NCBI RefSeq assembly: GCF_025144665.1
Contig: NZ_CP102294.1
Location: forward strand, 248,001-312,000
Length of the DNA: 64,000 nucleotides
Reading direction: 5' to 3'
Source of the DNA: Alistipes ihumii AP11
Lineage (GTDB): Bacteria > Bacteroidota > Bacteroidia > Bacteroidales > Rikenellaceae
Positions 58,073 to 63,729 of this stretch are shown in pieces. The notes under the pieces are model-generated. The model was not told where the DNA came from. It searched no databases and saw nothing but the letters and a program-made list of their open reading frames with translations. A program made the translations under genes and the position numbers. Each line of letters starts with the position of its first letter. Position 1 is the first letter of the stretch.

Positions 58073-61000
58073 TCAGTTCGCCTCCGTCGCAGGCATGGTA
58101 ATTCCCCCGCCCAGAGCTTTGTATAGCGTTACGTAGCTGCTCATCGCGCTGCCGACCGCATCGGCATAGTCGGTTTGCGCTTCGAACAGCGTGCGCTCGG
58201 CGTCGAGCACGTCCAGATAATCGGTCAGTCCGCCTCGGTACCGCTGCATGGCTACCGTATCGGCGCGCTCGGCCGACCGGACGAGCGTTTTCATCGCTTC
58301 GATCTGGGCGCGGTAGGTGTTGACGGCTGTCAGCGCATCCTCTACCTCGCGAAGCGCCTGCAAGTAGCATTGCTCGTAATTGAGCACGCTTTCCCTGTGC
58401 TTTTCCCTTGCGATCTGCACGCGCCTTTTGTTGGCTCCGAACTGAAAGACGGGGCCGGTCAGGTTTCCGGCTACCGACCATAGGTACGACTTGCTGCCGA
58501 ACAGCCGGGAGACGTCGTCGCTGAGCGTTCCTCCGTTGGCTGTCAGCGCGATGCTCGGGAAGCGCATGGCTTGGGCCACTCCGATCTCGGCGTTCGCGGC
58601 CATGACCTGATAGTAGGCTTCCTGCATGTCCGGCCTTCGCTCGAGCAGATCGGACGGCAGGCCCGCCGGAATTTCCTCCGGCATATCCAGCTCGGCGAGC
58701 GACGCGTGTCTTCCGATCAGATCGTCGGACGGGTTTTGCCCGAGCAGCAGACTGAGCGCGTGGAGCGCTTGTTGCCGGGCTCGCTCGAACCGGGGGATGG
58801 CGGCTTGTGCCGTTGCGACGGCCGCTCTGCTTTGGCTCAGCTCCATTTCGTTGATCGTGCCGGCTCGGTAGCTCGATTCCATCAGCCGGTAGGTATCTTC
58901 GCGGGATCGCAGCGTGGAGCGTGAAATGTATTCGGCATATTCGTACTGCAGGTAGTCGAAATAAGTCGTCGCCACCTCGGCCGCCAGCGAAACCATCACG
59001 CCCTGTGCTGCCCGGTCGGTTGCAAGCATCTGAGCGCGGTCGGCTTCGCTCATCCGGCGGATTTTGCCGAACAGATCCACCTCCCAGCTGATCGTCGGCT
59101 TGATCATGTAGCTCTGTTCCGGCTTGTCGGTGGTCAGGCCCACGTACGACTCGGTGCCGTACTGGGCATCGAGACCGTATCCGACCGAAGGTCCGAGACT
59201 CGCTTTCGTGGCCTTGAGCGTGAGCCGGGCCTGCTCGACGCGCGACAGGGCTACGGCTATGTTGCGGTTATTTCTGAGGGCGGTCGAGACCAGCCTGACG
59301 AGCGTCGTGTCGTTGAACAGTTCCCACCACCCGAGGTCCGAGGCCGCATCGGATGCCTGACCGATGTAGCGCTGCGGAATTGCGACCGCAGGGGGCTCGA
59401 ACCGCGGGCCTACCGTGCAGCCGAACAGGGCTGCCGAGGCGAGGAGCAGAGGAAGGTATTTCGGATTTCTCATGACTTTTCGTTTTTCGTTTTTCGTTTT
59501 TCGTTTCTGCTCGTATCGGCTCATGCGGCCGACGAGTACGAACAGGGCCGGGTAGGCGTACAGCCCGATGACCGTAGCGACCAGCATGCCTCCGAAAAGC
59601 GCGAGGCCCATGATGTTGCGGGCGACGGCATTGCTTCCCGTGGCCAGTATCAGCGGAAGCACGCCCATCAGGAAGGCTACGGCCGTCATGACGACGGGGC
59701 GGACACGCAGCTTGGCTCCTTCCAGCGCGGCTTGTTGCAGGTCCATTCCCTCGTCGAACTTGTCGCGCGCGTATTCGACGATCAGAATCGCATTCTTGGC
59801 TGCTAGTCCGATCAGCATGATGAGCGATACTTGCAGAAAGATGTCGTTGATGTAGACCGGATTGAACAGGTGTCCCAGATAAGTGAACGCCAGAGCCCCG
59901 AATACCGCGAAAGGAATACCCAGCAGAATGCTGAGCGGAAGCGTCCAGCTTTCGTACAGCGCTGCGAGGATCAGGAAAACGAAGACGACCGCGTACAGGA
60001 ATACCGTGCCTGCTCCGCTTTTCTGCGCTTCCTGATACGACATGTTGCTCCAAGCGTAGCCCATGTCCGAGGGAAGCACCTCCTCGGCGACTTCTTCCAG
60101 TGCCTTCATGGCCTGAGCCGTCGAATATTCGGACGCCGGGAGTCCCGTCACGCCGGCGGCCCGGTACAGGTTGAAGCGATTCGTAAACTGCGGTCCCGTC
60201 GTGTCCCTCACGGTAATGAAGGCCGACAGCGGCACGCTTTCGCCTCGGTCGTTGGTCAGATAGAACATGTCCAGCTTCGACTCGTTGAGCCGGTACTCGT
60301 CCTCGGCCTGAATGTAAGTCTGGTACATGCGGCCGAAACGGTTGAAGTTATTGACGTACATGCCGCCCAGATACGAGCTGATCTGCGAGTGCAGCTCGTC
60401 GAGCGAGATGCCGGCCTTGAGCACTTTCTCGTTGTCGATCGAGATGGCCTTCTGGGGCTCGTCGGCCTGAAAGGTCGTGCTGATAGTCGCTATTTCGGGC
60501 CGCTGCCGGGCGGCGGCTATGAAGCGATCGGTATAGTCGGCCAGATAGCCGGGCGTGTTGCCGCCTTTGTCCTGGATCATGATCGTGAAGCCGGAGCCGG
60601 GGCCCAGTCCCGGTATCGAGGGAGGTCCGAACGTGTATACCTGAGCCGAGTTGATCTCATAGTAGAGCTGCTCGTTGAGCCGGGTCGTGATCTGCCCGGC
60701 CGTCATCTTGCGCTGGCTCCAGTCTTTCAGTCGGATGAAAATCAGGCCGCTGTTCGGCGATTGGTTGCCCGACAGAACGCTGAATCCGGCAACGGAGGTC
60801 ACCGATTGAACGTTGTCGTTCCGGCGCAGGATGGAGTTGATCCGGTCGATCGCCTCCTTGGTCCGGTTCAGCGAGGCGGCTTCCGGCAGCTGTACGTCCG
60901 CCATCAGATAGCCCTGATCCTCGTTGGGCAGGAATCCGGTGGGAACCGTTTTCAGCAGAAGCAGCACGGCTATGACGGATATCGCGATGAAAATCAGTGT

Positions 61001-62605
61001 TCGGGCGCTGTGTCGAACCATGATTTTGCTGGTTTTCAGGTAGCTGTCTACGCTCCGGCCGAAACGGCGGTTGAACCAGCCGAAAAATCCTTTGTTTTTT
61101 TTCCCGCTCTGAGGTCGCAGCAGGATCGAACAGAGCGCAGGGCTCAGCGACAGGGCATTGATACCCGACAGCGCGACGCTGATGGCAATCGTGATGGCGA
61201 ACTGTCCGTACAGCTTGCCGGCCGCTCCGGGCATCAGGCCGACGGGCAGAAAGACGGCCATCAGTACCGTGGTCGTCGCAATGATCGGGGAGGCTACCGT
61301 TTTCATCGCGGCGATCGTCGCGTCTTTCCCGTTCATGCCTTTTTCGATGTTGACCTGCACCGCTTCCACGACGACGATCGCGTCGTCGACGACCAGGCCG
61401 ATGGCAAGCACCAGACCGAGCAGCGAGAAGACGTTGATCGAAAAGCCGAACAGCGGAAAGACCATGAATGCCCCGACCAGCGAGACCGGAATCGCGATGA
61501 TCGGCACGATCGTGGCCCGAATGTTCTGCAGGAACAGGTAGATGACCAAGACGACCAGCAGCAGTGCCAGAGCGAGCGTGACGACGATATCGTGGATGCC
61601 GAGCAGGATCGTCCGGGTCGAGTCGACGATCGTGTGATAGTGCATTCCCTCGGGGAACGACTGCGAGAGCTCCCGCATCGCGGCGTTGACCTCCTTACCT
61701 ACCTCGACGGCATTGCTGCCCGGCGACTGGTTGATCATGATCATGCTGGAGGGCTGTTGCTGGTAGGTCGAGTAGACGTCGTAAGTCTGCGAGCCCAACT
61801 CGACGTCGGCCACGTCTTTCAGATACACGAGCGACCCGTCCGGCTCGGCGCGCAGAACGATCCGCTCGAATTGCTCGACCGTGTTGTACTGGGCCGGCAT
61901 GCGTACCGTATAGGTGAACTGGACCGAGCCGTCGTTAGGCTCGGCGCCGAGCTGGCCGCCGGGTATCACCTCGCTCTGCTGTTCGATGGCCGAAGCGATG
62001 TCGGCGACGGTCACTCCCAGATAGTCCATTCGGTCGGGCTTGACCCAAATGCGCATCGCATAGGCGCCTCCGCCCATGACCTGGACGCTTCCCACACCGT
62101 TGATCCGCGCCAGCCGGTCCTTGATATGCAGGATCGCGTAATTGCCCAAGAAGTTTTCGTCGTATCTGCCGTCCGAGTAGAGCGACAGTACCTGAATGAA
62201 ACTGCTCATCGTTTTCTCGGTCGTGACTCCTTGCTTGATGACGACCTGCGGGAGCATGGGCGTGGCCGACGATACGCGGTTCTGCGTGAAGATCGTATTC
62301 ATGTCGGGATCCGTGCCGACGGCGAACGACACCTGCAGCGACATGCTGCCGTTGTTCGAGTTGGTCGATTGCATGTAGATCATGTCGCTCACGCCGTTGA
62401 CGCTTTCTTCGAGCGGCGTGGCGACGCTCTGTTCGATCGTCAGCGCGTCGGCTCCGAGATACTCGGCCGATACCTCGACCACGGGCGGGGTGATGTCCGG
62501 ATACTGCTCGATCGGCATGTTCCGTATGGCGATCAGTCCGAGCACGACGATCATAATGGCTATGACCATTGCGAAGATCGGACGTCTGACGAAGATATTT
62601 CCCAT
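58073..62605 (-). CDS. RND efflux pump fused in frame to its outer-membrane factor
   Basis: One 1510-codon reading frame. Residues 1-1044 are a complete HAE1/AcrB-type transporter (twelve helices; IFVRRPIFAMVIAIMIVVLG at the start, LAIGLVVDDAIVVVEAV in helix 4 with the proton-relay aspartates, VSLIMLIGLAAKNAILIVEYA later). Residues 1045-1510 are a full NodT/TolC-type outer-membrane lipoprotein with its own Met and lipobox LFGC. The join, KRKTKNEKRKV, is encoded by a four-copy 7-bp repeat (59477-59504). The ATG at 62605 is preferred to a TTG at 62614. The frame starts five bases after the adaptor gene. The downstream signal peptide could still be cleaved by signal peptidase II, releasing two proteins. 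Substrates are unknown; relatives export drugs, bile acids and dyes. Confidence 0.9.
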   Translation of the reverse strand: MGNIFVRRPIFAMVIAIMIVVLGLIAIRNMPIEQYPDITPPVVEVSAEYLGADALTIEQSVATPLEESVNGVSDMIYMQSTNSNNGSMSLQVSFAVGTDPDMNTIFTQNRVSSATPMLPQVVIKQGVTTEKTMSSFIQVLSLYSDGRYDENFLGNYAILHIKDRLARINGVGSVQVMGGGAYAMRIWVKPDRMDYLGVTVADIASAIEQQSEVIPGGQLGAEPNDGSVQFTYTVRMPAQYNTVEQFERIVLRAEPDGSLVYLKDVADVELGSQTYDVYSTYQQQPSSMIMINQSPGSNAVEVGKEVNAAMRELSQSFPEGMHYHTIVDSTRTILLGIHDIVVTLALALLLVVLVIYLFLQNIRATIVPIIAIPVSLVGAFMVFPLFGFSINVFSLLGLVLAIGLVVDDAIVVVEAVQVNIEKGMNGKDATIAAMKTVASPIIATTTVLMAVFLPVGLMPGAAGKLYGQFAITIAISVALSGINALSLSPALCSILLRPQSGKKNKGFFGWFNRRFGRSVDSYLKTSKIMVRHSARTLIFIAISVIAVLLLLKTVPTGFLPNEDQGYLMADVQLPEAASLNRTKEAIDRINSILRRNDNVQSVTSVAGFSVLSGNQSPNSGLIFIRLKDWSQRKMTAGQITTRLNEQLYYEINSAQVYTFGPPSIPGLGPGSGFTIMIQDKGGNTPGYLADYTDRFIAAARQRPEIATISTTFQADEPQKAISIDNEKVLKAGISLDELHSQISSYLGGMYVNNFNRFGRMYQTYIQAEDEYRLNESKLDMFYLTNDRGESVPLSAFITVRDTTGPQFTNRFNLYRAAGVTGLPASEYSTAQAMKALEEVAEEVLPSDMGYAWSNMSYQEAQKSGAGTVFLYAVVFVFLILAALYESWTLPLSILLGIPFAVFGALAFTYLGHLFNPVYINDIFLQVSLIMLIGLAAKNAILIVEYARDKFDEGMDLQQAALEGAKLRVRPVVMTAVAFLMGVLPLILATGSNAVARNIMGLALFGGMLVATVIGLYAYPALFVLVGRMSRYEQKRKTKNEKRKVMRNPKYLPLLLASAALFGCTVGPRFEPPAVAIPQRYIGQASDAASDLGWWELFNDTTLVRLVSTALRNNRNIAVALSRVEQARLTLKATKASLGPSVGYGLDAQYGTESYVGLTTDKPEQSYMIKPTISWEVDLFGKIRRMSEADRAQMLATDRAAQGVMVSLAAEVATTYFDYLQYEYAEYISRSTLRSREDTYRLMESSYRAGTINEMELSQSRAAVATAQAAIPRFERARQQALHALSLLLGQNPSDDLIGRHASLAELDMPEEIPAGLPSDLLERRPDMQEAYYQVMAANAEIGVAQAMRFPSIALTANGGTLSDDVSRLFGSKSYLWSVAGNLTGPVFQFGANKRRVQIAREKHRESVLNYEQCYLQALREVEDALTAVNTYRAQIEAMKTLVRSAERADTVAMQRYRGGLTDYLDVLDAERTLFEAQTDYADAVGSAMSSYVTLYKALGGGITMPATEAN
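59477..59504 (-). repeat. Heptanucleotide tandem repeat at the RND/outer-membrane junction
   Basis: Four perfect copies of TTTTCGT on the plus strand (ACGAAAA on the coding strand). The unit length is not a multiple of three. The coding strand ends the repeat with GTCATGAG: the ATG at 59473-59471 is in frame now, while TGA, one base to the right, would be used if one unit were lost. Confidence 0.9.
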
Positions 62606-62610
62606 ATTTT

Positions 62611-63729
62611 TCAATGCTTTACGGTTGAATCGGCCGTCGGATCCGGCTCGACGACAGCCCCTTCGCGCAGTTTATGGAATCCGGAGGTGACGATCCGTTC
62701 GCCGGCGTTCACTCCGGAAGTGACGATCCGTCGGTCGCCGTACGTCCCTCCGAGCGTGACGATCCGCTGCCGTGCGCGGTTGTCTTTGTCGAGCACGTAG
62801 ACGCTATATACGTTCTGCGTCTGGACGACGGCCGTCTGTGGAATCAGGAGCGCTCCGTAAACCGTGTCGGCCACGACCTCGATCCGGGCGAACTGTCCCG
62901 GCCGGAGCAGCGTGTCGGGATTGGGAAACGTGACCTGCGCATCCAGCGATCCGGTTTGTTGTTGGACGGCCCGGCCGATGAAGTCGAAACGGCCTTTCTG
63001 CGGATAGACGACATTGCCTGCGATACGTAGCGTAATATCGTACATCCGGGTTCTGTCCCGGCTGAGCATGTCGTAATAGGTCTGTTCCGGTATGTAAAAG
63101 AGAACGCGTATGGAATCGACCTGCGAGACAGTGTTCAGAACGGTGTACTGAGACCCTTCGCCCACATAGTCTCCCACGCGGGCCAGCGTTCGGCCGATAA
63201 TGCCGTTGAGCGGAGAGGAGATGCGCGTATAGCCCTGCTCTATGCGTGTGTAGTCGAGCGAGGCTTGGGCTGCGTTGAGCGAGGCGCGGGCGGCCGAGAG
63301 GCGAGCTACGGCCTGGTCCAGATCGCTTTTGCTGGCGGCGCTGGTCTCTGCCAGCGGTTTGACCCGGTCGTAGTTCTGTCTGGCGGCGATCATTTCCGCT
63401 TCGGCTTGCCGGACTGCGGCCGTGCTGCGGGCCGTTTGCGCTTCGTAAGGCTGCGGCTCGATCACGTACAGCAACTCGCCCTTGCGGACGAACGAGCCTT
63501 CCTTGAAATGGATGCTGCGGAGGAAGCCGCTGACCCGCGCTTGAATCGAAATGTCGTTGCGTCCGTAAGTCTGCCCCACGAAACTCATCGTAACCGGGAC
63601 GTCCCCGGCGATGACTTCGGCGACCGGCAAGCGGAGCGGAGGAGAAGATACGCTTTTTTCTTGACGGCATCCCCAGATCATGACAGCGGAGATAATCGGA
63701 AATAAGAAAATGGTACGGACATTTTTCAT
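62611..63729 (-). CDS. RND efflux periplasmic adaptor lipoprotein (AcrA-like)
   Basis: A 372-residue membrane fusion protein. The signal peptide ends at a lipobox (IWGC, Cys21). The lipoyl half-motifs are GDVPVTMSFVGQT / FLRSIHFKEGSFVRKGELLYVI and YTRISSPLNGIIGRTLARVGDYVGEG, separated by a helical hairpin (about 100-165, TARSTAAVRQAEAEMIAAR). Beta-barrel and membrane-proximal domains follow. It links the inner-membrane pump with the outer-membrane factor. First gene of the operon; its stop is five bases before the pump ATG. Confidence 0.94.
   Translation of the reverse strand: MKNVRTIFLFPIISAVMIWGCRQEKSVSSPPLRLPVAEVIAGDVPVTMSFVGQTYGRNDISIQARVSGFLRSIHFKEGSFVRKGELLYVIEPQPYEAQTARSTAAVRQAEAEMIAARQNYDRVKPLAETSAASKSDLDQAVARLSAARASLNAAQASLDYTRIEQGYTRISSPLNGIIGRTLARVGDYVGEGSQYTVLNTVSQVDSIRVLFYIPEQTYYDMLSRDRTRMYDITLRIAGNVVYPQKGRFDFIGRAVQQQTGSLDAQVTFPNPDTLLRPGQFARIEVVADTVYGALLIPQTAVVQTQNVYSVYVLDKDNRARQRIVTLGGTYGDRRIVTSGVNAGERIVTSGFHKLREGAVVEPDPTADSTVKH

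Follow-up and report, generated by a model that had tools for sequence, protein, structure and literature searches.

The 64-kb window, by which we mean the whole stretch of DNA analysed, carries a three-gene efflux operon of HAE1 type (Table 1). Genes for a periplasmic adaptor, an RND permease and a NodT-type outer-membrane factor (OMF) follow one another in that order, and all three score above the curated NCBIfam cut-offs. Between the C-terminal codons of the permease and the ATG of the OMF lies a tandem array of the heptanucleotide ACGAAAA. A first, sequence-only reading had placed four copies of this unit exactly at the border, where Tandem Repeats Finder now reports the array, and had held that four units join the genes in frame to encode 1510 aa. 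Both statements are borne out: the open frame 62614..58073 (-) runs unbroken across the two genes and encodes 1513 aa from a TTG or 1510 aa from the ATG at 62605. Within this single ORF, Pfam finds ACR_tran (5-1028) together with OEP in two stretches; i.e. permease and OMF are fused. The lipobox that had been expected inside the fusion is also there, as part of an internal signal sequence that reads KYLPLLLASAALFGC. The fusion is not of the obligate kind in which the OMF start codon has been lost, the ATG at 59473 still being present.

Table 1. Coordinates, within the window, of the efflux genes and of the features at their junction
Feature	Position	Strand	Basis
RND periplasmic adaptor gene, first of three-gene operon	62611..63729	-	TIGR01730 (RND_mfp), 265 bits over cut-off
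RND (HAE1/AcrB-type) permease gene, up to NodT ATG; likely start ATG 62605	59474..62614	-	TIGR00915, 1065 bits over cut-off; Pfam ACR_tran
NodT/TolC-type OMF gene with lipoprotein signal KYLPLLLASAALFGC; ATG at 59473, in pump frame in four-unit allele	58073..59473	-	TIGR01845 outer_NodT, 371 bits over cut-off
Heptanucleotide tandem array, ACGAAAA x4.3 on coding strand	59477..59506	-	Tandem Repeats Finder: period 7, 100% match
ATGA; TGA is the pump stop at 0, 3 or 6 units	59470..59473	-	In-silico unit counts; ATGA overlap in 27/75 distinct junctions of relatives
Stop codon of third frame (2, 5 or 8 units)	59268..59270	-	In-silico unit counts

A solitary heptamer array

We recomputed the junction frames in silico for 0-9 ACGAAAA units. 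With 1, 4 or 7 units, pump and OMF are fused in one frame; with 0, 3 or 6, the pump frame closes with TCA TGA, the TGA overlapping the ATG of the OMF; and with 2, 5 or 8, a third frame continues for ~68 further codons and stops at 59268. The frames worked out earlier for three or six and for two or five units are thereby reproduced. The array has two features of a contingency locus: it is a tandem repeat in a coding frame with a unit length not divisible by three, and the predicted product changes with unit number. Given that unit length, a three-state junction is possible.

Arrays with periods of 4-15 were surveyed in 464 kb of this genome (the 64-kb window and 20 further stretches). The ACGAAAA array was the longest perfect one, at 30 bp against 24 bp for the runner-up, and the only one with at least four units. 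A pattern search for ~3 units found no second site anywhere in the 2.78-Mb genome, and a 25-base pattern of the same unit gave no match in the sample of 394 other Bacteroidota genomes. Only slippage or repeated duplication can sensibly account for the growth of such an array. Short repeats are prone to miscounting, and same-genus relatives have separate genes (see below), both of which would fit an error of assembly or culture in the unit number. However, the genome is a single contig, 99.98% complete, and any ordinary read spans a 30-bp array; we regard an artefact as extremely improbable.

At two orthologous junctions from the same genus, G005 (NodT 66%) and G007 (56%), the genes are separate and there is no repeat, whereas the four units of the sequenced allele merge both genes into one frame. 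Because of these two orthologues, the comparison identifies the fused allele as the derived state. The repeat unit resembles codons of a conserved YE(E/Q)KR pump tail, for which G005 and G007 keep the YEEKR/YEQKR seed codons, and this tail, as YEQKR, is the probable source of the unit. We also considered the ATGA coupling in the three-unit frame as proof of the ancestral state but rejected it as weak, since ATGA arises for any OMF with a second codon beginning in A. Among the orthologues examined in other species, none had a repeat of another length at the pump/OMF junction.

A recent duplication could have fused the genes in this lineage as a neutral accident, stable or drifting and of no regulatory meaning. 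The repeat is indeed a one-off in the genus and phylum samples, and fusions arise repeatedly via other routes. Nevertheless, the array is perfect over 30 bp and, in the 464 kb sampled, has no parallel in the genome, which points to repeated slippage rather than a single event, and we think a mere accident quite unlikely.

Fusions and heptamer arrays in relatives

Of the 75 distinct junctions compared across family and order, 42 were separate in various ways, 27 had the ATGA overlap and six were fused. In a tree built from the junction region, the fused label must change three times: in this genome, in a four-species clade of genus g208, and in G032. The g208 species (L270-L273; one clade, supports 99/98) carry obligate HAE-type pump-NodT fusions, and G032 (L091), another member of the order, has a further, independent one. 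These fusions unite the same two protein families as in our allele, likewise with a lipobox inside, but they lack the heptamer, the linker is shortened in g208, and the OMF start is lost in some. A hydrophobic segment ending in the lipobox Cys is retained in all five. In G647 the interval from the last permease helix to this Cys contains no ATG, GTG or TTG, and the OMF signal must therefore be read as an internal signal. Long open frames in G532, G564, G478 and G601 were rejected as extra fusions, being open alternative frames over separate genes. In several relatives (L274-L279), the OMF shares the reading frame of the pump and is parted from it by just one or two stops, one small step short of fusion.

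Natural RND-OMF fusions are commoner than the sequence-only reading had allowed for. Across Bacteroidota, permeases of CusA/CzcA type frequently have an OMF fused to them behind an internal signal peptide. A scan for these permeases in 61 Bacteroidota genomes listed at least about 30 matches with frames of 1440-1506 aa. In the four that we read (L331, L335, L339 and L341), a hydrophobic signal-like segment with an Ala-x-Ala-type end is followed by an OMF region, with OEP confirmed by Pfam in one of the four. Like our ORF, they hold an RND permease, an internal signal and an OMF in one frame; in contrast, they belong to the heavy-metal subfamily, their signals look to be of the signal-peptidase-I type with no lipobox, and the junctions read contain no repeat. 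Since the long CusA/CzcA frames occur with internal signals before the OMF in those read, permease-OMF polyproteins with internal signals are, as judged from sequence, a recurrent architecture in Bacteroidota. The comparison as a whole predicts internal lipoprotein signals within RND pump polyproteins, for which internal signal cleavage of the Bradyrhizobium cytochrome b/c1 polyprotein is an analogue. The literature searched contained no direct description of natural RND-OMF fusions. The earlier suggestion that the fused state is a working product is plausible because relatives carry permanent fusions that retain the lipobox; the fused allele is probably functional.

Repeats related to the array occur elsewhere in the family. 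The exact ACGAAAA unit was rare in a pattern search, and ACG(A/G)AAA arrays were present in 8/250 family genomes, numerous in some, mostly with four units and near gene ends. One such array falls within a loop encoded by orthologous genes for a substrate-binding lipoprotein: with four units it is in frame in G546 (L300), with nine it is in frame in G591 (L311), and with seven it is out of frame in G547 (L314), where the ORF ends early. In most species the same loop is short and without the repeat. These sequences show that species differ in the length of their ACG(A/G)AAA arrays and that such an array can disrupt a frame, and they make the lipoprotein gene of G546, G547 and G591 a candidate phase-variable uptake gene.

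Genus g208 (G546, G547, G591, G611 and G658; L220-L249) also has dispersed (ACGGAAA)4 arrays, with 8-21 matches per genome, often right behind stop codons or intergenic, and near them are further period-seven repeats, e.g. GCTAATG, GAGAACT and AATTGTC. At L097, near position 1500, a heptamer array is flanked on either side by the palindrome ATTGTTCCACGAGGAACAAT, which resembles the parS sites bound by ParB. The exact ACGAAAA array was seen on at least 16 contigs of a Bacillota MAG, Emb289P3bin92 (L108, L109, L114, L125-L127, L130, L139, L141, L147, L149, L155, L166, L168, L170 and L171), in some cases as facing inverted pairs. We rejected the unit as a lineage mark, a pattern scan of contigs having turned up this heptamer in many unrelated phyla.

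Proposed slippage, processing and change of subunit linkage

The explanation that we favour, and hold to be somewhat better than an even bet, is that a slippage-prone heptamer fused the two genes, that the product is cut at its internal lipoprotein signal, and that the copy number drifts among three states with modest effect. The repeat would have expanded by slippage from the conserved pump-tail codons (Y-E-Q-K-R) at the pump/OMF border. The fused product would be inserted as a polyprotein; its Lys/Arg-rich linker would remain cytoplasmic and the lipoprotein signal of the OMF would work as an internal signal; Lgt and the lipoprotein signal peptidase LspA would then release the lipidated OMF from the pump. 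Gain or loss of units would move the junction among the fused, ATGA-coupled and out-of-frame forms. As the fused and coupled forms probably give similar final parts, unit changes would chiefly alter the OMF:pump ratio and would not act as a clean on/off switch; should the internal signal be cleaved, these two forms may differ little.

Free OMF may also be initiated at its own ATG. In Bacteroidota, translation starts without Shine-Dalgarno pairing, and its efficiency tracks mRNA structure and the bases ahead of the start codon, A being preferred at -3 (PMC6847099). With four units, the leader of the OMF start is ~63% A and predicted to be 78% unpaired over the start region, and the predicted openness rises from 0.57 at two units to 0.78 at four. 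Internal initiation behind this A-rich, weakly structured leader could therefore allow the fused allele to yield free OMF as well. One might go further and propose that the repeat is chiefly an unstructured leader for the OMF start, with in-frame read-through as a side effect. The tuning of Bacteroidota starts by structure and upstream bases in place of Shine-Dalgarno signals (PMC6847099) and the rising openness would suit such a role; against it, the base at -3 is G and relatives start their OMF without any such repeat, and we judge it very unlikely as the main function. The G at -3, where A is favoured, also counts against our favoured explanation, as does the length of the array, four units being short for a highly mutable repeat.

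Slippage of a heptamer is an established mechanism of phase variation in neuO of E. coli K1, where the repeat is (AAGACTC)n and alleles have 3 to 53 units, with 20 the most common (PMC13001214). Both systems are seven-base coding repeats in which the repeat number modulo three sets the frame; in neuO, however, one enzyme is turned on or off near its N-terminus, usually with many more units, whereas the predicted variation of the present repeat would join or part two adjacent genes. This precedent, the unit length with its three distinct predicted outcomes, and the related array that differs in unit number and frame among sister species would all be expected of a true contingency switch, with the heptamer kept by selection and fused, coupled and frame-lost forms differing in efflux within mixed populations. 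Yet no orthologue has a repeat at the junction, hence there is no sign of long-term maintenance, and the obligate fusions suggest that the pump works whether fused or separate, which may leave little contrast. Switching makes a good hypothesis; on balance, though, a switch kept by selection seems unlikely. Slightly less probable again is reversible phase variation of subunit linkage, in which slippage would alternate a tethered polyprotein with separate subunits and with a third, OMF-poor state, so that efflux differs within a clone; linkage, in place of gene expression, would be what varies.

Two further systems bear comparison. In Campylobacter jejuni, a polyG tract decides whether cj0031/cj0032 is one frame or two annotated genes (PMC4889913). 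Repeat length again sets one long frame versus two separate frames, but there a single enzyme is split and inactivated, whereas each of the two proteins here is complete, with a start codon of its own for the second. Direct repeats of seven bases lie ahead of starts in Beggiatoaceae, e.g. TAACTGA, and in some Bacteroidetes (PMC4679880), and heptanucleotides are the most abundant long simple-repeat class in most genomes surveyed, according to earlier work as cited in that paper. The Beggiatoaceae repeats are likewise seven-base direct repeats, often immediately upstream of start codons; unlike the single site here, they are dispersed in many copies per genome and have a different unit. None of these three precedents bears on how two complete efflux subunits are linked, and the literature searched held no direct description of simple-sequence-repeat phase variation of RND pumps or of such repeats in Alistipes/Bacteroidales. 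If such switching is real, it would widen phase variation from turning a gene on or off to altering the connection between components of a single machine, and would reveal one way in which the permanent pump-channel fusions of Bacteroidota arise.
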